Below are positions 30,760 to 42,636 of a stretch of DNA of 64,000 bases, in pieces. Location of the stretch: positions 1,178,001 to 1,242,000 of the forward strand of contig NZ_CP154631.1 in NCBI RefSeq assembly GCF_039555755.1. The letters run 5' to 3'. The notes under the pieces are model-generated. The model saw only the letters and a program-made list of their open reading frames with translations. It did not search any database and was not told where the DNA came from. The position numbers and the translations under genes are program-made. The stretch comes from Pseudomonas sediminis. GTDB lineage: Bacteria > Pseudomonadota > Gammaproteobacteria > Pseudomonadales > Pseudomonadaceae. Each line of letters opens with the position of its first letter. Position 1 is the stretch's first letter.

Positions 30760-30838
30760 GAGAATTAGACAGTGAGCCGAATAGAAGGCATTATCGGCTC
30801 ACTGAATGAGCCGAATAGGCTCGCCAATCGGCTCACAG
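30760..30838 (+). promoter_or_regulatory. operator/promoter of Fic-NERD cassette, copy 1
   Basis: Repeated half-sites TGAGCCGAATA and TATCGGCTCA form two overlapping dyads (about 30773-30836), ten bases before the Fic gene. The same arrangement occurs at 39,528-39,603 before copy 2. The Fic protein has a C-terminal winged helix, so it may bind here itself. Confidence 0.55.
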
Positions 30839-30848
30839 ATGCCCCCTT

Positions 30849-31970
30849 ATGAATGAACCGCTCTGGATCTGGCAGCAGCCCAACTGGCCGCACTTCAGCT
30901 GGCAAGGCGAAACGCTTGCCCCGCTGCTGCGCGCTTGCAGTCAGGCTCAGGGGCGTTTGTTAGGAATGCTCGGTGCGGTGGGCAATGACACCGAAGTGCA
31001 GAGCAGCCTGGATGCCATGCTGCAAAACATCGTCACCTCTTCTGCCATCGAGGGTGAGCAGCTGAATGTCGGTTCGGTGCGTTCATCACTGGCGCGGCGC
31101 TTGGGGCTGAACGAAGAAGGTCGCACCACCTCACGTTCCGAAGGTCTGGCGGAACTGCTGCTCGATGCCACCCGCCTGCATCAACAACCGCTAGACGAAC
31201 AGCGACTCTTCACCTGGCACCGTTGGCTATTCCCCACCGATGAGCAACTGCTGACTCGACCATTACACATCGGTGCACTGCGTGGCGAAGAGCCCATGCA
31301 GGTCGTTTCAGGTAGGATCGACCGCCCCACCGTACATTTCGAAGCCCCTCCTCGCGCAGGATTGGAAGCGCAACTGACGGACTTTCTCGCCTGGTTCGAG
31401 AGCAGCCGCAGCGATGCCAGCCTCGACCCCTTTCTGCGCGCCGGCATCGCCCATTTCTGGTTCGTGACCCTGCACCCCTTCGATGACGGCAACGGTCGCC
31501 TCACTCGTGCCATCACCGACCTGGCATTGGCTCAGGGCGAGCAACAGGCCATCCGTTTTTACGCCATGTCGGCGAGCATCCTCGACGACCGCGCCGGTTA
31601 CTACCGCATTCTCGAAGCCAGTCAGAAAGGTGGGCTGGATATCACCAACTGGCTGCAGTGGTTTCTCGCAACCTTACTCAACAGCCTGGAGCAGGCCCTC
31701 GCTCGCATCGACCGCGTACTGGTCAAGGCGCGCTTCTGGCAGACACACCGCAGCCAAACACTATCTGCGGAGCAGATCAAAGTGCTAAACCGCCTGCTCG
31801 ATGGCGGCGAAAGGGGTTTCGAAAACGGTATCAGCGCAGCCCAGTACCAAGCCGTGGCCAAAGTATCCAAAGCCACCGCAACCCGTCATCTGGGCGACCT
31901 GCTGGAAAAAGGCTGCATCGAGCGGCTGCCCGGTGGAGGGCGCAGCACCCGTTACCAGATAGCACGCTGA
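30849..31970 (+). CDS. Fic-family AMPylator with winged-helix C-terminus, copy 1
   Basis: 373 residues. N-terminal DUF4172-type segment (WIWQQPNWPHFSW), inhibitory helix SSAIEGE matching the (S/T)xxxE(G/N) class II motif near residue 65, and the catalytic Fic core with HPFDDGNGRLTRAI (His, Asp and Arg all present, near 205). A C-terminal winged HTH (ISAAQYQAVAKVSKATATRHLGDLL) follows. Expected to transfer AMP (or a related group) from ATP onto a Thr/Ser/Tyr of a target, held off by its own Glu; probably also regulates its promoter. Nearly identical to the protein at 39616-40737. Confidence 0.9.
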   Translation: MNEPLWIWQQPNWPHFSWQGETLAPLLRACSQAQGRLLGMLGAVGNDTEVQSSLDAMLQNIVTSSAIEGEQLNVGSVRSSLARRLGLNEEGRTTSRSEGLAELLLDATRLHQQPLDEQRLFTWHRWLFPTDEQLLTRPLHIGALRGEEPMQVVSGRIDRPTVHFEAPPRAGLEAQLTDFLAWFESSRSDASLDPFLRAGIAHFWFVTLHPFDDGNGRLTRAITDLALAQGEQQAIRFYAMSASILDDRAGYYRILEASQKGGLDITNWLQWFLATLLNSLEQALARIDRVLVKARFWQTHRSQTLSAEQIKVLNRLLDGGERGFENGISAAQYQAVAKVSKATATRHLGDLLEKGCIERLPGGGRSTRYQIAR

Positions 31971-32138
31971 GCACCTTAGCCGAGCTTGTCAGGCTCTAGT
32001 GCGTCATCGCGTCATAGGACAATGGTCACGATCCCCCTTGAGCCATTGAAAGCAATTAGCCATTATCCGGGTGTGCCAGGCATCTGGATTTCGGCACACC
32101 TGCTCGCCTCTCCATCAAGCAGCCGCTCAAGGAAGAAA

Positions 32139-32909
32139 ATGGATTACAGCCCGATAGTCGCCCAAGTCTGGGGCATGCTGACCTGGTTCATCCCGGCGGC
32201 CCTGCTGATCGGCCTGCTCAAATCGCCCTGGGCCAAGGGGCAGATCGGTGAACTGCTGGTGCGGCTGTTTGCCCATTGGCAACTGGACAAGCAGACCTAC
32301 CGCCGCCTGCACAACGTCACCCTGAATACGCCAGACGGCACCACGCAGATCGACCACGTATTCCTCTCGCCTTACGGCATCTTCGTGCTTGAAACGAAGA
32401 ACATGAGCGGCTGGATCTTCGGCAGCGAGAAGCAGGCGCAGTGGACGCAGAAGCTCTACAAACGCACCTTCAAATTCCAGAACCCGCTACGCCAGAACTA
32501 TAAGCACCTCAAAGCCCTGGAAGCCACCCTTGGTGTCAATCCCGAGCACCTGCACTCAGTCATCATCTTTGTAGGCGGCAGCACCTTTAAAACAGAAGTG
32601 CCAGCCAACGTCACCCAGGGCATTGGCTTTATCCGCTATATCAAGTCATTCCAGCAGCCAGTATTCAGCGCGGCTGAAGTCGACGCCATGCTGCACGCCC
32701 TGCAAACCGGCCGTCGTGCCCCCACCCTCGCCACCCACCGCGAGCATGTGCAAAACCTGAAGCGCCGGAGCGATCCGACAGCCGAGCGGCAATGCCCGAA
32801 ATGCGGAAGTGCGCTGCTGATTCGCACCGTGAAATCAGGCCCGAAATCAGGGCAGCAATTTTGGGGATGCTCGGCATTCCCCAAGTGCCGAACCATGCAA
32901 AGCCTTTAA
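32139..32909 (+). CDS. NERD nuclease-like protein with topoisomerase zinc ribbon, copy 1
   Basis: 256 residues. One N-terminal membrane helix (VAQVWGMLTWFIPAALLIG), then a NERD domain (about 30-160) with KGQIGELLV, TQIDHVFLSPYGIFVLETKN (Asp and Glu-x-Lys of a PD-(D/E)xK nuclease fold). The C-terminal zinc ribbon has CPKCGSALL...FWGCSAFPKC (four Cys), as in topoisomerase I tails. Likely membrane-tethered DNA-binding nuclease. The ATG at 32139 matches copy 2 (40907) exactly in length. Pairs with Fic upstream. Confidence 0.85.
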   Translation: MDYSPIVAQVWGMLTWFIPAALLIGLLKSPWAKGQIGELLVRLFAHWQLDKQTYRRLHNVTLNTPDGTTQIDHVFLSPYGIFVLETKNMSGWIFGSEKQAQWTQKLYKRTFKFQNPLRQNYKHLKALEATLGVNPEHLHSVIIFVGGSTFKTEVPANVTQGIGFIRYIKSFQQPVFSAAEVDAMLHALQTGRRAPTLATHREHVQNLKRRSDPTAERQCPKCGSALLIRTVKSGPKSGQQFWGCSAFPKCRTMQSL

Positions 32910-32940
32910 CAACCATCCATTGATACGCAGGACGCTCATC

Positions 32941-33342
32941 ATGCAATCAAGCAAAAACTGGCTGCTGGCGATTGCCGTCACAGCGCTCAGCGCTGGAACA
33001 CACGCAGCGGACGATGGCTACAGCGAAACCTATACCGCCTGCATGGATGAGTCCGGCGGCGTGACGGTGAATATGCTCGATTGCATGGGCAGCGAGACGG
33101 AACAGCAAGACGCCCGCCTCAACCAAAATTACAAAGCCGCCATGCAAGCGCTAACACCCGCACAGCAAACACAACTGCGCGACGTGCAGCGGCTATGGAT
33201 CAAATTCCGTGATGCTGATTGTGCCCTGCTCGGTAGCTTTACTGGAGGCACCATCGACCGCATAAACAGCGCCTCGTGCTTTTTGGATATGACCAAGCAG
33301 CGCGCCGATAACCTTGCGGGATTGACCGACCCAAGCCTGTGA
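32941..33342 (+). CDS. secreted LprI/DUF1311-type protein
   Basis: 133 residues with a signal peptide (MQSSKNWLLAIAVTALSAGTHA) and the DUF1311 pattern: CMDESGGVTVNMLDCMGSE, DARLNQNYKAAMQAL, LRDVQRLWIKFRDADC, ASCFLDMTKQRADNL. Conserved Cys pairs suggest disulfides in the periplasm. The family includes lysozyme-inhibitor LprI. The ATG at 32941 is used because it begins the signal peptide. Cargo placed right after the first Fic-NERD cassette. Confidence 0.75.
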   Translation: MQSSKNWLLAIAVTALSAGTHAADDGYSETYTACMDESGGVTVNMLDCMGSETEQQDARLNQNYKAAMQALTPAQQTQLRDVQRLWIKFRDADCALLGSFTGGTIDRINSASCFLDMTKQRADNLAGLTDPSL

Positions 33343-33449: not shown

Positions 33450-34508
33450 ATGGCTGACGATGCTACGGAAATAACCGAATACAACATCGCTGACGACGCA
33501 GAGCTTGAGCGAATTATTTTTCACATCGTCAGTCCCGACCTAGAGACCCCTAGGATTCTCATGGAGGTCGACACACCTGAAGACTACTCTAAATTCTTCA
33601 TTGACCGCCTAAAAGAAACGCTAAAAGGAACAACTTATATATTTCAAGAAGAATCTTGGGTGAAATCCCAGATTAAAAATGCCATGACGAGCCCGCACGC
33701 ATTTGTAGACACCTCAGAGAGACTCGCACAAAAATTCCAAGAGCTATTCAAATCTGACAAAAGACTTATACCTGGAGCGTTAATGCTCCTAAAGATAAAA
33801 AATGGAAAAGACACTTATGGCGCATTAATCAAATATGACGACATGAGCGTCATCTCTTACAAAACCAAAACACTAGATAATGGAAAAGTAAAACCAGTAC
33901 TTGATCAGTTTTTAAATAATTTCGTACAAGACAAGAGGGCCATTCAGAAGTCTGTACTTTTCAACATTAACTCCCCACACTCAAATATAATCTGCACTGA
34001 CAGAAGCGGCACCAAAGGAGACATAACAGACAAGCTCAAGGGATACTTACAAGCCGACAGACTTTTCACACGCACGCTATTAACAGAAAGACTTATATCC
34101 GCGCTAGAAGAAACAGCACGATCCCAATCAGACCTCATCCCACAAGAAATAAAGAGAAAGCTTAAAAGCGCGGTCAGGCATGCCGTCAAAGAAATTGTCG
34201 AATTTGACCCAGAGAATCATGAGCAAATTCTTACTGCCGCTTTCGGTGAGGCTCACAAAGAGGAAAAATTAAGAAAAGCATTCAGCGCCGCATTGAAAAG
34301 TAGAAAAATTCTACACGAGAAATTTGAGATAGCGCATGAAGCGGTCAAACAACCATCAAAAAGAATTAAACAGACACACGAAGGGGTAAAAGTAATCTAC
34401 ACAAGTGATGACATAGGAAAGAATATTTTCTTCGAGGAAAATGGCGCAAAGAAAACAATTCGTATCGTCACTGACCGATACACATTAGACGACGAAGCAG
34501 ATGATTGA
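33450..34508 (+). CDS. NdpA/YejK-like nucleoid-associated protein
   Basis: 352 residues, distinctly AT-rich DNA compared with all neighbours. Pattern of the 37-kDa nucleoid-associated family (NA37): an N-terminal half with FFIDRLKETLKGTTYIFQEES, GALMLLKIKNGKDTYGALIKYDD, then SNIICTDRSG, and DKLKGYLQADRLFTRTLLTERL. Lys/Glu-rich helical C-terminus. It overlaps the next gene by eight bases (33450-34508 / 34501), a coupled pair. In islands such proteins are often partners of anti-phage or competition genes, but I cannot match it to a named system. Confidence 0.65.
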   Translation: MADDATEITEYNIADDAELERIIFHIVSPDLETPRILMEVDTPEDYSKFFIDRLKETLKGTTYIFQEESWVKSQIKNAMTSPHAFVDTSERLAQKFQELFKSDKRLIPGALMLLKIKNGKDTYGALIKYDDMSVISYKTKTLDNGKVKPVLDQFLNNFVQDKRAIQKSVLFNINSPHSNIICTDRSGTKGDITDKLKGYLQADRLFTRTLLTERLISALEETARSQSDLIPQEIKRKLKSAVRHAVKEIVEFDPENHEQILTAAFGEAHKEEKLRKAFSAALKSRKILHEKFEIAHEAVKQPSKRIKQTHEGVKVIYTSDDIGKNIFFEENGAKKTIRIVTDRYTLDDEADD

Positions 34509-35835
34509 AATTTTCACACGACTAACGTTTGAAAGCGAGTCATTAGATACTGCATTCTATCGTCCAGAGAAACCGAATGACTCAACGCTCGCACAGGATT
34601 TAAATATACTAGCAACGCGAGAAAACATTGACTTTTCGATTCAAATTAGTGACGCCTTCGACGAGCAGATAGCCCTTCCAGCACAAGAGGATCTATCGAG
34701 CTTCAACGTTGAGCTAGTATCATTTATAAAAAACAACAAATCCGATACTCAATATTTTTTCACTACTCAAGGCCTACTAAAAAACCTTGAGTCCAGCGAA
34801 ATATCAAAATCTTCGAACATATACATACTCGAAGACTTTACCGAATTCAAAACACTCACCTGCAACTTCAGAAAATGGGATTTATGTAAGCCGAACATAT
34901 CCCACAAGCAGGACAGCGAACATCATGTAGACGCTCGAAAAATCGTAAATGATTTTACAGGCTCTCAGATTAATTCAAACCACCTCTTTTGGGTAACTAC
35001 CGATATTGCGACCGCCCCCAGCGAAATTATTACAGCATGGCTTAAACACTCCACACCCAAGGCCTCAATTTTACTTCTTTCTGAAATATCAACTAACAGC
35101 AACAAGACAATATATACACTAAAAGGAAATAAGAATTTAGAATTTCATGCCAATGAAAAGGCTGTCGAACTACCTCACAGCGCACACATCAATATTCACA
35201 ACGCCTTAAACTGGATATTTGACACAGCCAGAGAGACCGAAATAAGACACACGCTGTTGTGCCAGCGACTATCACACAACAACTCCAAAAAACTAGAAAC
35301 CTGGACTGAATTCATTGCAAGAACAATAACCCCCTCATTATCAGCCGCTAAAGAAGACTACAAAAAACATCTGCTTATCAAAACAGGGGATTTACTTAAA
35401 GCCATTACAGACATTCGAAAAGCAGTTGCCGACGAAACAAACAAAATAATAGAAAGAACGAGCAACCTTACATCCAACCTTCTCCGGGATGCAAGCATAG
35501 CATTCGTAATAGCAGTTCTAAGACAAACTTTAATTACGAAAAACCTTCTCACAAAAGAGAACGCATCACTATTACTGCTGGCTACTGCTGCATGGTTAGT
35601 GACTAGCATTTGCCTCACCAGCTACCAGAACAAACTCGTCATAAATTCACAAATACGCTTTCGCCGCAACTGGAGCAAAGGATTAAGCTCTTTAGTACCT
35701 GAAAGCGAGCTCAAAAAAATATCGAGACGCCCTTTAAAAGACGCAATATCTAATTATAAAAAAATAAAAATTATTGTAAGCGCCATATACGCAACACTAG
35801 TACTAATAATTGCAAGCATCCTTATTTTCACATAG
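34501..35835 (+). CDS. AT-rich membrane protein coupled to NdpA-like gene
   Basis: 444 residues, no family recognised. A soluble N-terminal part (1-290) with no visible catalytic motif, then a helical stretch (about 295-325) and three hydrophobic segments: AFVIAVLRQTL (about 335), SLLLLATAAWLVTSICL (about 355-372), and IIVSAIYATLVLIIASILIF at the very end. Cytosolic sensor plus membrane anchor or pore is a fair guess. Coupled by an eight-base overlap to the NdpA-like gene. A cytosolic DNA-binding-type partner with a membrane effector is a layout seen in abortive defence; inference. Confidence 0.6.
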   Translation: MIEIFTRLTFESESLDTAFYRPEKPNDSTLAQDLNILATRENIDFSIQISDAFDEQIALPAQEDLSSFNVELVSFIKNNKSDTQYFFTTQGLLKNLESSEISKSSNIYILEDFTEFKTLTCNFRKWDLCKPNISHKQDSEHHVDARKIVNDFTGSQINSNHLFWVTTDIATAPSEIITAWLKHSTPKASILLLSEISTNSNKTIYTLKGNKNLEFHANEKAVELPHSAHINIHNALNWIFDTARETEIRHTLLCQRLSHNNSKKLETWTEFIARTITPSLSAAKEDYKKHLLIKTGDLLKAITDIRKAVADETNKIIERTSNLTSNLLRDASIAFVIAVLRQTLITKNLLTKENASLLLLATAAWLVTSICLTSYQNKLVINSQIRFRRNWSKGLSSLVPESELKKISRRPLKDAISNYKKIKIIVSAIYATLVLIIASILIFT

Positions 35836-36541: not shown

Positions 36542-36582
36542 CCACAATGGTGCCCACTATTTTTTAGTGGACACCATTGTGG
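36542..36582 (+). promoter_or_regulatory. hairpin over the tnpA start
   Basis: CCACAATGGTGCCCACTA (36542-36559) pairs with TAGTGGACACCATTGTGG (36565-36582) with a single mismatch. The right arm contains the GTG start of tnpA, so transcripts reading in from outside would have the start codon locked, a common way for insertion sequences to limit transposase. Confidence 0.55.
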
Positions 36583-36956
36583 ATACACCCCCCTCTACTC
36601 CTCGCCGCAGTCGCCGCCCAAACTTTTCGGTGGAGTTCAAGCGTCGTGTCGTCGAGGCCACGCTATTGCCCGGCGCATCCGTCGCGTTGATCGCCCGAGA
36701 GCATGAGGTCAACGCCAACCTCGTCTTCAAATGGCGCCGTCACTATCGGGAGGGGCAGCTGGGGCCAGTTGCCCACCAGGTTACTTTGTTGCCGGTCAAC
36801 CTGAGCAAGGCGCCGACGCCCTCAGCGGAAGAGGCAATGCCACTGCCGTCGAGTCCGGGCGGACTGGTTGTGGAGTGCGGTCGGGTCACCTTGCGTATTG
36901 AGGGCGTGCCCGACCCGCAAACCTTGCAACTGGTCTTGCAGCAGATGTTGCGATGA
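36567..36956 (+). CDS. tnpA: IS66 family TnpA (DNA-binding accessory protein)
   Basis: 129 residues. HTH of the IS3/IS66 orf A type: NFSVEFKRRVVEATLLPGAS then VALIAREHEVNANLVFKWRRHY. The remainder is variable. Needed with TnpB for efficient transposition by TnpC. Starts with GTG inside a hairpin arm; ends in an ATGA overlap with tnpB. Confidence 0.9.
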   Translation: MDTIVDTPPSTPRRSRRPNFSVEFKRRVVEATLLPGASVALIAREHEVNANLVFKWRRHYREGQLGPVAHQVTLLPVNLSKAPTPSAEEAMPLPSSPGGLVVECGRVTLRIEGVPDPQTLQLVLQQMLR

Positions 36957-37297
36957 TTGCTCCGCCCATCGGGACTCGCATCTGGATCGCGGCTGGAGCC
37001 ACCGACATGCGGCGGGGGTTCGATGGCCTGGCGGCCCTGGTGCAAACCCAACTTGAGGCGGATCCGTTCTCCGGCCAGATCTTCGTGTTTCGGGGACGGC
37101 GCGGTGACCGGATCAAATTGCTGTGGTGGGATGGCGATGGTTTGTGCCTGTTCTGCAAGCGGCTTGAGCAGGGGCGCTTCGTCTGGCCGCAAGCCACCAG
37201 CGGCAGCGTCTCCTTGACGACGGCACAACTCGCGATGCTGTTGGAGGGCATCGATTGGCGCCGACCGTTGCGCACCGCACCGGTACGAGCAGTCTGA
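36953..37297 (+). CDS. tnpB: IS66 family TnpB (Orf2)
   Basis: 114 residues, pattern IGTRIWIAAGATDMRRGFDGLAALV, FRGRRGDRIKLLWWDGDGLCLF and RLEQGRFVWP, the full IS66 Orf2 signature. Coupled to tnpA by the ATGA overlap. Accessory transposition protein of unclear mechanism. Confidence 0.95.
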   Translation: MIAPPIGTRIWIAAGATDMRRGFDGLAALVQTQLEADPFSGQIFVFRGRRGDRIKLLWWDGDGLCLFCKRLEQGRFVWPQATSGSVSLTTAQLAMLLEGIDWRRPLRTAPVRAV

Positions 37298-37332
37298 TGT
37301 TCAACGCTTGAGAACACCAGTAAAATCGCGCC

Positions 37333-38841
37333 ATGACTTGCGCGACCGACTTCCTTCCTGACGACATCCAGGCCTTGAAAGCCTTGGTTACCGCCCAGCA
37401 CGGGGAAATCGAGCACCTGAAACTGATGATCGCCAAGCTGCGGCGCATGCAGTTCGGTCGGCGTTCCGAGCAACTCGATGGCATGCTCGACCAACTGCAA
37501 CTGACGCTCGAAGAGTTGCAGGTCAGCCAGGCCGCATTGGCCACGCCACCACCAGCCCAATCGCGCCCACGTACACCCGTACGCCGCAAGCCATTGCCCG
37601 AGCATTTGCCCCGTGAAATCCACGTCCATCGACCCGATGCGCAGTGCCCAGGCTGTGGCGGCGAACTTCGTCATCTGGGCGATGACGTGGCCGAAGTTCT
37701 GGAGTACGTGCCGGCGCGCTTCAAGGTGATTCGCCACGTGCGGCCCAAGTTGGCCTGCCGCTGCTGTGACGGGATCGTGCAGGTGCCGGCCCCGAGCCGA
37801 CCGATTTCCCGGGGTCTTGCCGGGCCGGGATTGTTGGCCCATGTGCTGGTGTCCAAATACGTGGATCATCTGCCGCTGTATCGGCAGTCCGAAATCTATG
37901 CGCGTGAGGGCGTGTCCCTGGAGCGCTCGACCATGGCCGACTGGATCGGCGAAGCGAGCCGGCTCTTGCAGCCATTGGTCAGCCGGTTGCGACAGCACAT
38001 CATGGCCGCCAACAAAGTCCACGCCGACGACACGCCGATCGCCGTGCTCGCCCCCGGCCAGGGTAAAACCAAGACCGGACGCTTGTGGACGTATGTGCGC
38101 GCCGAGCGCCCCGCAGGTAGTAGCACGCCGCCGGCAGTCTGGTTTGCCTACTCGCCGGATCGCAAAGGCGAGCACTCCCGAGCCCATCTCCGGGGCTTCG
38201 CCGGGACGTTGCAAGCCGATGGCTATGCCGGTTTCGCGCAACTCTATGCCTCGGGCACGATTCACGAGGCGGCATGCTGGGCACATGCTCGACGCAAGTT
38301 TTTCGACCTGCACAAGGCACTGGCCTCGCCGATCGCGGCTGAGGCCCTGCAACGGATTGGCGCGCTATACGCCATCGAGGCGGAAATTCGCGGACAGCCG
38401 CCCGATCAACGACGCGCAGTGCGGCAGCGGCGAGCCAGCCCTCTGCTGGCGCACATGCACACCTGGCTTAATCACACGCTGATGCAATTGCCGCCCAAAT
38501 CGGCATTGAGCGGTGCGATCCACTATGCCCTCGCACGTTGGCAGGCGCTGACGCGCTACTGCGCGGATGGTCGCATTGAAATCGACAACAATGCCGCCGA
38601 ACGGGCCCTGCGTGCAGTCGCCCTGGGTCGCAAGAATTTTCTGTTCGTCGGTTCCGACGCTGGCGGAGAAAGAGCGGCGGCGATCTACAGCCTGGTCGGT
38701 TCAGCCAAGCTCAACGCATTGAACCCACAGGCTTATTTGACGCACGTGCTGGAGCGCATCGCCGACTACCCAATCAATCAGCTCGACGACTTGCTGCCCT
38801 GGAATATTGCTCTGCCTACCCTAGAACATGAGGCCGCTTGA
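37333..38841 (+). CDS. tnpC: IS66 family transposase TnpC
   Basis: 502 residues. Leucine-zipper-like N-terminus (LKALVTAQHGEIEHLKLMIAKL), zinc finger CPGCGGEL...KLACRCCDG, DDE transposase core with VHADDTPIAVLAPG (first Asp), LQADGYAGFAQLY (second Asp) and IEIDNNAAERALRAVALGRKNF (Glu), and the C-terminal extension. All catalytic residues are present. Confidence 0.96.
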   Translation: MTCATDFLPDDIQALKALVTAQHGEIEHLKLMIAKLRRMQFGRRSEQLDGMLDQLQLTLEELQVSQAALATPPPAQSRPRTPVRRKPLPEHLPREIHVHRPDAQCPGCGGELRHLGDDVAEVLEYVPARFKVIRHVRPKLACRCCDGIVQVPAPSRPISRGLAGPGLLAHVLVSKYVDHLPLYRQSEIYAREGVSLERSTMADWIGEASRLLQPLVSRLRQHIMAANKVHADDTPIAVLAPGQGKTKTGRLWTYVRAERPAGSSTPPAVWFAYSPDRKGEHSRAHLRGFAGTLQADGYAGFAQLYASGTIHEAACWAHARRKFFDLHKALASPIAAEALQRIGALYAIEAEIRGQPPDQRRAVRQRRASPLLAHMHTWLNHTLMQLPPKSALSGAIHYALARWQALTRYCADGRIEIDNNAAERALRAVALGRKNFLFVGSDAGGERAAAIYSLVGSAKLNALNPQAYLTHVLERIADYPINQLDDLLPWNIALPTLEHEAA

Positions 38842-39527: not shown

Positions 39528-39603
39528 ATTAGACAGTGAGCCGAATAGCCGGCATTATCGGCTCACTGAATGAGCCGAATAGGCTCGCTAATCGGCTCAT
39601 AGA
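39528..39603 (+). promoter_or_regulatory. operator/promoter of Fic-NERD cassette, copy 2
   Basis: GATTAGACAGTGAGCCGAATA followed by TTATCGGCTCA, then a second TGAGCCGAATA and ATCGGCTCA; same order and spacing as before copy 1 at 30,760. Homology between the two cassettes starts here. Confidence 0.55.
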
Positions 39604-39615
39604 TGAACACGCCTT

Positions 39616-40737
39616 ATGAATGACCCCCTCTGGATCTGGCAACAGCCCGACTGGCCGCACTTCAGCTGGCAAGCCGAAGCGCTCGCCCCGCTGTTGCGAG
39701 CCTGCAGCCAGGCTCAGGGGCGTTTGTTGGGCATGCTCGGCGCGGTGGGCAGTGACACCGAAGTGCAGAGCAGCCTGGATGCCATGCTGCAGAACATCGT
39801 CACCTCCTCAGCCATCGAGGGTGAGCAACTGAATGTCGGCTCGGTGCGTTCATCACTGGCGCGGCGCTTGGGGCTGAACGAAGAAGGCCGCACCACCTCG
39901 CGCTCCGAAGGCCTGGCCGAACTGCTGCTCGATGCCACCCACGCACATCAAGAACCGCTAGATGAACAACGACTTTTCAACTGGCACAGCTGGCTATTCC
40001 CCAACGATGATCAACTGCTGACTCGACCATTACACATCGGCGCGCTGCGCGGCGAAGAACCCATGCAGGTGGTTTCAGGTCGCATCGACCGCCCGACTGT
40101 ACATTTCGAAGCCCCTCCCCGCGCAGAGCTGGAAGCGCAACTGGCGGACTTTCTCACCTGGTTCGAGAGCAGCCGCAGCGATGCCAGCCTCGACCCCTTT
40201 CTGCGTGCCGGCATCGCCCATTTCTGGTTCGTCACCCTGCACCCATTCGATGACGGCAACGGCCGCCTCACTCGCGCCATCACCGACCTGGCATTGGCCC
40301 AGGGCGAACAACAGGCCATCCGCTTTTACGCCATGTCCGCTAGTATTCTCGACGACCGCGCCGGTTACTACCGCATTCTCGAAGCCAGTCAGAAAGGTGG
40401 GCTGGATATCACCAACTGGCTGCAGTGGTTTCTCGGAACATTGCTCAAGAGCCTGGAGCTGGCCCTTGCCAGTATCGACCGCGTGCTGGTGAAGGCTCGC
40501 TTCTGGCAGGCACACCGTAGCCAAACCCTATTAGCGGAGCAGATCAAAGTGCTTAACCGCCTGCTCGATGGCGGCGAGCGCAGTTTCGAGAACGGTATCA
40601 GCGCAGCCCAGTACCAAGCCGTGGCCAAGGTTTCCAAAGCAACCGCGACCCGCCATCTGAGCGACCTGCTGGAAAAAGGCTGCATCGAGCGGCTACCCGG
40701 TGGCGGGCGCAGCACCCGTTACCAGATAGCACGCTGA
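39616..40737 (+). CDS. Fic-family AMPylator with winged-helix C-terminus, copy 2
   Basis: 373 residues, aligned without gaps to the protein at 30849-31970 and different at only a limited number of positions (for example DPLWIWQQPDWPHFSWQAEALAPLL versus EPLWIWQQPNWPHFSWQGETLAPLL). Catalytic HPFDDGNGRLTRAI and inhibitory SSAIEGE are both kept, as is the C-terminal winged HTH. Both copies therefore look functional and could cross-regulate. It is outside the island's right repeat, just after the IS66 element. Confidence 0.9.
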   Translation: MNDPLWIWQQPDWPHFSWQAEALAPLLRACSQAQGRLLGMLGAVGSDTEVQSSLDAMLQNIVTSSAIEGEQLNVGSVRSSLARRLGLNEEGRTTSRSEGLAELLLDATHAHQEPLDEQRLFNWHSWLFPNDDQLLTRPLHIGALRGEEPMQVVSGRIDRPTVHFEAPPRAELEAQLADFLTWFESSRSDASLDPFLRAGIAHFWFVTLHPFDDGNGRLTRAITDLALAQGEQQAIRFYAMSASILDDRAGYYRILEASQKGGLDITNWLQWFLGTLLKSLELALASIDRVLVKARFWQAHRSQTLLAEQIKVLNRLLDGGERSFENGISAAQYQAVAKVSKATATRHLSDLLEKGCIERLPGGGRSTRYQIAR

Positions 40738-40906
40738 GCGCCTAAACCGGGCTCATCAGCCTCTGGTGCGTCATCGCGCCAGAGGACAATGGTCGCGATC
40801 CCCTTGAGCGATCGAAAGCAATTAGCCATTATCCGAGAGCGCCAAACATCTGGATTTAGGCACATCTGCTCGCCCAGCCATCAAGCAGCTCGGTTCAAGG
40901 AAGAAA

Positions 40907-41677
40907 ATGGATTACAGCCCGATAGTCGCCCAAGTCTGGGGCATGCTGACCTGGTTTATCCCGGCGGCCCTGCTGATCGGCCTGCTCAAATCGCCCTGGG
41001 CCAAGGGGCAGATCGGTGAACTGCTGGTGCGCCTGTTCGCCCATTGGCAGCTGGACAAACAGACCTACCGCCGCTTGCACAACGTCACCCTGAACACACC
41101 AGACGGCACTACGCAGATCGACCACGTATTCCTCTCGCCCTACGGTATTTTCGTGCTGGAAACTAAGAACATGAGCGGCTGGATCTTCGGCAGCGAGAAA
41201 CAGGCGCAGTGGACACAGACATTCCGCAAGCGCAGCTTCAAATTCCAGAACCCGCTTCGGCAGAACTACAAACACCTAAAAGCCCTGGAAGTCACCCTTG
41301 GCGTCAGCCCCGAGCACCTGCACTCGGTGATCACCTTCGTCGGCGGGAGCACCTTCAAAACCGAAGTGCCGGCCAACGTGACCCAGGGCATCGGCTTTAT
41401 CCGCTATATCCAATCATTCCAGCAGCAAGTATTCAGCGAGTCTGAAGTCGACGCCATGCTGCACGCCCTGCAAACCGGCCGCCGCGCACGGACCCTCGCC
41501 ACACACCGCGAGCATATACAAAACCTCAAGCGCCGTAGCGATCCGACGGCCGAGCGGCAATGCCCGAAATGCGGCAGCGCCCTGGTTATTCGCACCTGTA
41601 AACACGGGGCCAATGTCGGCAAGCAATTCTGGGGCTGCTCGACCTTCCCCAAATGCAAAACTATGCAGAGCCTTTAG
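40907..41677 (+). CDS. NERD nuclease-like protein with zinc ribbon, copy 2
   Basis: 256 residues, near-identical to 32139-32909, including the N-terminal membrane helix, IDHVFLSPYGIFVLETKN and the four-Cys ribbon CPKCGSALV...FWGCSTFPKC. Homology between the two cassettes ends at the stop codon of this gene; behind it comes an Mrr endonuclease instead of the LprI/NdpA genes. Confidence 0.85.
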   Translation: MDYSPIVAQVWGMLTWFIPAALLIGLLKSPWAKGQIGELLVRLFAHWQLDKQTYRRLHNVTLNTPDGTTQIDHVFLSPYGIFVLETKNMSGWIFGSEKQAQWTQTFRKRSFKFQNPLRQNYKHLKALEVTLGVSPEHLHSVITFVGGSTFKTEVPANVTQGIGFIRYIQSFQQQVFSESEVDAMLHALQTGRRARTLATHREHIQNLKRRSDPTAERQCPKCGSALVIRTCKHGANVGKQFWGCSTFPKCKTMQSL

Positions 41678-41715
41678 CACGCAGCCCTTACCTCAATTTT
41701 GCGTATGGAGTCGCA

Positions 41716-42636
41716 ATGTCCGTCCCAACCTACGACCAGTTCATTGAGCCGATTCTGCGCTACCTGGCGGCCACGCCCGAAGGCGCGACAGCACGTGACG
41801 CCCATGAGGCCGCTGCTGATGCGCTGAACTTGTCGGAAGCTCAGCGCCAAGAGCTAATTGCTAGCGGCCAGGCCACGTACAAGAACCGTGCAGGCTGGGC
41901 CCACGACCGCCTCAAGCGCGCCGGCCTGTCCAGCAGCGCCAAGCGTGGGTATTGGAAGCTGACCGACGCAGGTATTACCTATGCAGCCCAGAACCCCGCC
42001 CCTCTGACTGTGGATCAGGTCGAACAGCTCGCCATCGGTTTTATGAATGTAAAACTGAAAACTCCGACTGACGCTGTCCCACTCGACGGACAAGAACAGT
42101 CTGCTCCTGCGGCCAACTCCGCCACTGTTAGCCCTGATGACCGCCTGGAGCAGGCTCTACGTGAGCTACGCGAGGCAACGGCTGCAGATCTGCTGGATAA
42201 CCTTCTACAAGTCAGCCCGAATCGATTTGAAGTCATCGTGCTGGATGTACTGCATAGCCTTGGCTACGGAGCTAGTCGCAACGATCTACAGCGCGTTGGC
42301 GGCAGCGGTGATGGCGGTATCGATGGGGTGATCTCACTAGACAAGCTCGGCCTGGAAAAAGTCTACGTCCAAGCCAAACGCTGGCAGGGCACGGTTGGCC
42401 GGCCAGAACTGCAAGCCTTCTATGGTGCACTCGCCGGACAGAAGGCTAAGCGTGGAGTGTTTATAACCACTTCTGGCTTCACCGCCCAGGCAGCAGACTT
42501 TGCCCGTTCCGTGGAAGGCATAGTGCTAGTTGATGGGAGTCGACTGGTCAACCTGATGATGGATTATGAAGTTGGCGTGACCTCACGCCTGCTTAAATTG
42601 CCGAAACTAGATAGCGACTACTTCGATGAGGAATGA
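41716..42636 (+). CDS. mrr: Mrr-type restriction endonuclease (type IV-like)
   Basis: 306 residues. N-terminal winged-helix Mrr_N domain (about 1-100: YDQFIEPILRYLAATPEGATARD, RAGWAHDRLKRAGL), then the Mrr catalytic domain: LLQVSPNRFEVIVLDVLHSLGYGAS, GGSGDGGIDGVI (catalytic Asp), VYVQAKRWQGTVGRPELQAFYGAL (Gln-x-Lys) and GVFITTSGFTAQA. Cuts methylated foreign DNA. The ATG at 41716 gives the standard length. Directly behind Fic-NERD copy 2, possibly one defence operon. Confidence 0.92.
   Translation: MSVPTYDQFIEPILRYLAATPEGATARDAHEAAADALNLSEAQRQELIASGQATYKNRAGWAHDRLKRAGLSSSAKRGYWKLTDAGITYAAQNPAPLTVDQVEQLAIGFMNVKLKTPTDAVPLDGQEQSAPAANSATVSPDDRLEQALRELREATAADLLDNLLQVSPNRFEVIVLDVLHSLGYGASRNDLQRVGGSGDGGIDGVISLDKLGLEKVYVQAKRWQGTVGRPELQAFYGALAGQKAKRGVFITTSGFTAQAADFARSVEGIVLVDGSRLVNLMMDYEVGVTSRLLKLPKLDSDYFDEE

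Follow-up and report, generated by a model that had tools for sequence, protein, structure and literature searches.

Nucleoid-associated proteins are usually viewed as housekeeping organisers of DNA. What is a distant relative of one of them doing in tandem with a membrane protein, in a stretch far richer in A+T than its surroundings? This question is raised by a two-gene locus of Pseudomonas sediminis, located within the 64,000 nucleotides that we analysed (the window; contig NZ_CP154631.1, positions 1,178,001 to 1,242,000), and consisting of the following features:

Gene 1, 33450..34508, + strand: 352 amino acids (aa), ATG start; NA37/YejK-fold protein, putative clamp on double-stranded DNA
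Gene 2, 34501..35835, + strand: 444 aa, ATG start; predicted to have a soluble N-terminal domain followed by a long helix and, at the C-terminus, two to three membrane helices
Overlap of gene 1 and gene 2, 34501..34508, + strand: 8 bases, from the sequence

An initial annotation, made from the sequence of the window, had placed two overlapping open reading frames (ORFs) here and described them as far more AT-rich than anything around. The sequence confirms the positions and the 8-base overlap, both ORFs are intact, and G+C is 0.407 in gene 1 and 0.390 in gene 2 compared with 0.605 in the window, an AT-richness that only 0.4% of 2386-bp windows reach. Gene 1 and gene 2 are one conserved, mobile and co-diverging unit, and because of its mobility, its positions in islands and prophages, and its defence neighbours, we consider it very probable that the pair is a small mobile system protecting cells, most likely against phages. 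The constant association of one NA37/YejK branch with an uncharacterised membrane protein, and its movement as cargo, suggest that a chromosome-binding fold has been turned into immunity.

Conservation and mobility of the gene pair

Gene 1 was present in 19 of 398 genomes of the host family, and gene 2 was adjacent in all 19 (the window, L002 and L021-L037), including one locus, L036, where the reading frame of gene 2 is interrupted, leaving it in two frames. L002, from Pseudomonas argentinensis, was the sole match when genome contigs were scanned with gene 2. In the family of genome G1067, which appears to be of Enterobacteriaceae type, 6 of 392 genomes have gene 1 and all six have gene 2 next to it; one Enterobacteriaceae-type genome, G1532, has its gene 1 divided between two frames. 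A phylum search with the gene 1 profile matched 5 of 398 genomes, four of them with gene 2, and no gene 2 was found in the 13 kb examined at the match in G1199 (E = 2.6e-5), an NdpA. The class-wide search with the gene 2 profile returned only the host's own genome (1 of 369), so that either the module is patchy or the gene 2 profile search is insensitive. The initial annotation had proposed a real two-gene module, to be given up if the genes occurred together only in close relatives; they are found together in Gamma- and Alphaproteobacteria, on plasmids, in prophages and in one phage, at identities as low as about 17-20%.

The arrangement of the two genes is equally constant. All 34 fetched pairs have both genes on the same strand, and, taking the longest start of each gene, 29 overlap and 5 lie 1-6 bases apart. 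Across 26 pairs, the protein distances of gene 1 and gene 2 are strongly correlated (r = 0.966); none of 5000 permutations reached this value, the highest giving 0.318, and the correlation is 0.905 among the 310 comparisons with a gene 1 distance above 0.3. The co-divergence means that partners have not been swapped; common descent of linked genes alone could produce such an r, so binding is not implied. L036 and L038 (gene 1 missing) were left out of the pair sets, L108 and L047 were scanned, lacked gene 2 and were not counted as pairs, and P0015 (a fragment) was left out of alignment A3 and P0033 and P0034 out of A4.

On plasmids, tblastn found 10 records with gene 2 and 8 with gene 1, all of the latter among the former, and gene 2 is adjacent on each of the 8 gene-1-positive plasmids (six regions read, two taken from coordinates). 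Of seven plasmid regions examined, six have both genes side by side and one lacks gene 1; matches on one Sinorhizobium plasmid and on an Enterobacter ludwigii plasmid lie outside these regions. Gene 2 without gene 1 occurs in 2 of the 10 records, and the one examined, a Klebsiella plasmid, has a shortened gene 2 beside IS26. One phage record, that of the temperate Thiobacimonas phage vB_ThpS-P1, carries both genes near one genome end. Two scans of viral contigs found no relative, and a phage search with the gene 2 of L029 found no match.

Escherichia coli carries at least two versions of the pair. With the L117 pair as query, 32 of 5426 E. coli genomes matched, and in two (PapM-32-1 and CFSAN018748) the match spanned 80% or more of the query. 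In both, the pair lies behind tRNA-Leu and a tyrosine integrase, on an island (L120:8001-13840 and L122:8001-13840) where it stands next to genes for an N-6 DNA methylase and a retron-type HNH endonuclease. The proteins of this island pair include WP_164476791 and WP_164476790. Matches to the second version that span at least 80% of the query with no less than 99% identity come from 29 of the 5426 genomes, in one of which it is split by an IS5-like element, and a thirtieth genome keeps 19% of that query. At the two loci examined, this version belongs to a lambdoid prophage, where it is flanked by a Hok-like gene and antiterminator Q and runs opposite to both; the prophage pair is represented by WP_001586997 and WP_001586996. 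In total 31 of 5426 genomes have both genes (one split by the insertion sequence), which do not amount to 31 independent events because the collection holds near-identical assemblies. DNA searches of E. coli with the pairs of the window, pKAZ5, Pantoea and L115 gave no match, and among the matches listed for the Klebsiella pair only the first 65-76 query bases aligned.

At other loci, the pair has an integrase gene next to it (L115, L117, L118 and L119) or a TraC_F_IV gene nearby (L116). Five of ten neighbouring proteins match PADLOC models at E of at most 1e-5 (HEC-06 twice, HamB, type I restriction and a weak type IIG match), a proportion that is no test of enrichment because the ten were picked by eye. 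In Methylocystis, DUF262 genes and genes annotated as anti-phage come after the pair. Two large neighbours, of 1148 aa (L031:11331-14777) and 1690 aa (L024:11724-16796), have no PADLOC match at the same threshold, and are possibly further uncharacterised defence genes.

Relationships and architecture of the two proteins

The closest fold to the predicted structure of gene 1 is YejK (9be2, Foldseek E = 3e-8), and PF04245, the NA37/YejK/NdpA family, is matched at E of at most 0.1 by 15 of 23 gene 1 relatives (best 8.1e-22). The window protein by itself has no significant Pfam family, PF04245 included, and no PADLOC model at significance; it matches YejK in NCBIfam at E = 0.015 and the unnamed phrog_1974 in PHROGs at E = 1.4e-5. 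Its place in the PF04245 family follows from the link through its matching relatives. On the strength of fold and relatives, gene 1 is a remote member of the NA37/YejK (NdpA) proteins, in agreement with the NdpA-like label given to it originally. It differs from known members in being tied to gene 2, and in five residues (K128, Q166, K167, D184 and T309) that are invariant in 35 of 35 copies and differ in the host's own housekeeping NdpA (G000:C1:2883859-2884821). No gene 2 stands beside that NdpA within the 3963 bases examined around it. Sequence comparison thus places gene 1 on what appears to be a branch separate from core NdpA and tied to a membrane partner. YejK is described as binding double-stranded DNA in the accessible text of its study (PMC10561277), and by analogy gene 1 of the window may do the same.

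A protein search with gene 2 recovered 16 proteins, including the window's own, and a profile search recovered the same 16. For the window's gene 2, as for gene 1, no Pfam or PADLOC model reached significance. Comparison of 23 members with Pfam, PADLOC and NCBIfam gave no convincing family match, and Foldseek found no structure at E of at most 0.001. The only effector-type signal in PADLOC came from one of the 23 members, against a TIR-Ago partner model (E = 0.0047). Across the copies, K307 and W238 are present in 35 of 35 and K300, E247, G209 and W391 in 34 of 35.

The description of gene 2 as a three-helix membrane protein holds in outline. In the window copy, segments 355-373 and 424-442 rise above a Kyte-Doolittle cut of 1.6, and at a cut of 1.5 three segments appear in 15 of 18 relatives and two in the other 3. 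The AlphaFold2 model is fair over the first 290 residues (with one poor loop) and weak beyond them, where long helices occupy the membrane-type C-terminal region at a confidence of about 54-65. In the window and the three closest pairs, the loop that joins helices two and three carries a net charge of +8 to +9, compared with -1 to +7 in the other 22 pairs; by the positive-inside rule, this loop charge points to a cytosolic N-terminus in the close group only. Many relatives have a tail after the last helix, often proline-rich (27 prolines in 105 residues in the gene 2 of L031, L031:7198-8841; 26 pairs measured), whereas in the window copy the protein ends 2 residues beyond that helix and so has no such tail. 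The topology that we propose has the C-terminal helices in the inner membrane and the N-terminal part in the cytosol.

Possible modes of action

How might such a pair protect a cell? The mechanism that we favour, with close to an even chance of being correct, is a membrane-tethered DNA clamp acting on phage DNA. The C-terminal helices of gene 2 would anchor it in the inner membrane, leaving the large N-terminal part in the cytosol, and gene 1, a specialised NA37/YejK-type clamp on double-stranded DNA, would dock onto gene 2. On infection, phage DNA that enters or replicates would be seized by the clamp at the membrane and its replication or expression blocked, much as KwaB tethered by KwaA does in Kiwa. 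From the evidence above we infer DNA binding by the window's gene 1, the topology, a physical complex, an anti-phage role and the way in which the pair acts.

Kiwa is the closest known parallel in design, as both it and the proposed pair combine a DNA-clamp fold with a membrane partner. According to the accessible text on Kiwa, KwaB, held at the inner membrane by KwaA, halts phage DNA replication and late transcription and does not cut the DNA (PMC12904381). Profile similarity is absent both between gene 1 and four KwaB sequences (hhalign E = 0.7) and between the gene 2 family and four KwaA sequences (E = 0.44), and PF16162 (KwaB) was not listed for gene 1 of the window (E of at most 1) or for its 23 relatives (E of at most 0.1). 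In the fold ranking of gene 1, KwaB comes next after YejK, but with a Z no better than that of unrelated MHC rows. In addition, the gene order is reversed relative to that of gene 1 and gene 2, and gene 2 has a large soluble domain whereas KwaA has about 200 aa in all. Since the clamp-and-membrane design is alike and the sequence profiles are unrelated, the pair would work like Kiwa without being Kiwa. More tentatively still, we suggest a second, independently built membrane-tethered DNA-clamp immunity, convergent with Kiwa, which would join a YejK-fold clamp to a membrane family without known relatives and would have spread in Proteobacteria by phages, integrase islands and plasmids.

Membrane effectors occur in several known abortive infection systems, and the main rival, which we regard as unlikely, is an abortive infection in which gene 1 senses phage DNA or an altered nucleoid and gene 2 forms a pore that depolarises the membrane, so that the cell stalls or dies. 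The C-terminal membrane helices behind a large soluble front would suit such an effector, and prophage and tRNA-Leu island settings fit either mode. Against it, gene 2 is unrelated to the PADLOC effector models apart from the single TIR-Ago partner signal, and there is no sign of DNA-end sensing. The interpretation along these lines in the initial annotation survives in part: an NdpA-like/membrane module was indeed acquired as cargo, and nothing found favours DNA-end sensing or membrane depolarisation. Less likely than the abortive-infection pore, and improbable in our estimate, is an accessory regulator of mobile elements, in which gene 1 would counter silencers such as MvaT, or tune or stabilise the element, with gene 2 as membrane cofactor. 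The model for this is NdpA2-TprA of PAPI-1, where, in the accessible text, an NA37 protein is likewise encoded on a mobile element, and NdpA2 and TprA raise PAPI-1 transfer and modify MvaT binding (PMC8565334). The presence of the pair on plasmids, prophages and islands would fit, as would the NdpA/YejK genes noted for two Pseudomonas phages in the accessible part of another report (PMC10305613). However, TprA is a ribbon-helix-helix regulator and NdpA2 is 97% identical to core NdpA (PMC8565334), whereas gene 1 appears to be a separate branch with a fixed membrane partner, and the islands carrying integrase and pair adjoin other defence-type genes.

We give the least credence to a reading in which gene 2 itself carries out defence or exclusion, by detecting or preventing the entry of DNA at the envelope, and gene 1 only controls gene 2. 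The proline-rich tails of many relatives, which would be periplasmic if there are three helices, are in line with this, and the prophage position fits superinfection exclusion. The window copy with its 2 residues after the last helix does not share the tail, the two proteins co-diverge tightly, and gene 2 without gene 1 was seen in the two plasmid records mentioned above, and the copy in the examined one is shortened.

According to the accessible text of the DefensePredictor study (Science 2026), one of the 42 E. coli units validated there contains a YejK nucleoid-associated domain, and this unit cut plating or plaque size (PMC13092281). Because E. coli carries the gene 1-gene 2 pair, this system may be a member of the pair family, and may even be the pair itself, tested under another name; its partner is unnamed in that text. 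The pair, E. coli versions of which exist, may thereby provide the YejK-domain defence system with a family, a gene that acts as partner and a mechanism that can be tested. The initial annotation knew of no named system with this pair. PADLOC-DB 2023 indeed has no model for it, and in the literature searched, with most subscription papers outside its scope, no paper was recognised as describing it; the 2026 system, to the extent that its accessible text allows, may prove to be the exception.

Surroundings of the pair in the window

The following features of the window lie around the pair:

Fic gene, 30849-31970: upstream of the pair
NERD gene, 32139-32909: upstream of the pair
LprI-like gene, 32920-33342: between NERD and gene 1
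IS66-type transposition genes, 36567-38841: directly behind the pair; ORFs of 129, 114 and 502 aa, assigned by eye; G+C 0.629
Mrr-type restriction gene, 41653-42636: after the second Fic-NERD copy; PADLOC mREase_IV, E = 2.4e-129

The pair had been described as cargo behind a Fic-NERD cassette, and its position is as described, with the LprI-like gene intervening. Fic and NERD form a 2153-bp direct repeat (30764-32908 and 39528-41676, 90% identity), the copies of which enclose the LprI-like gene, the pair, the IS66-type element and one more gene. Fic-NERD looks like a backbone onto which cargo is stacked or swapped. In the window's genus, we found 20 further NERD loci from 19 other genomes (84-96% identity; two end at contig ends), with Mrr beside NERD in 5 of the 20 and the pair in none, and the NERD gene marks a variable site in this genus. 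The pair is next to NERD or follows it closely in the window, L002, L021, L034, L035 and L036. The pairs of L034-L036 belong to a subfamily very different from that of the window pair, and the pair therefore probably entered the NERD site more than once or was swapped there as a unit.
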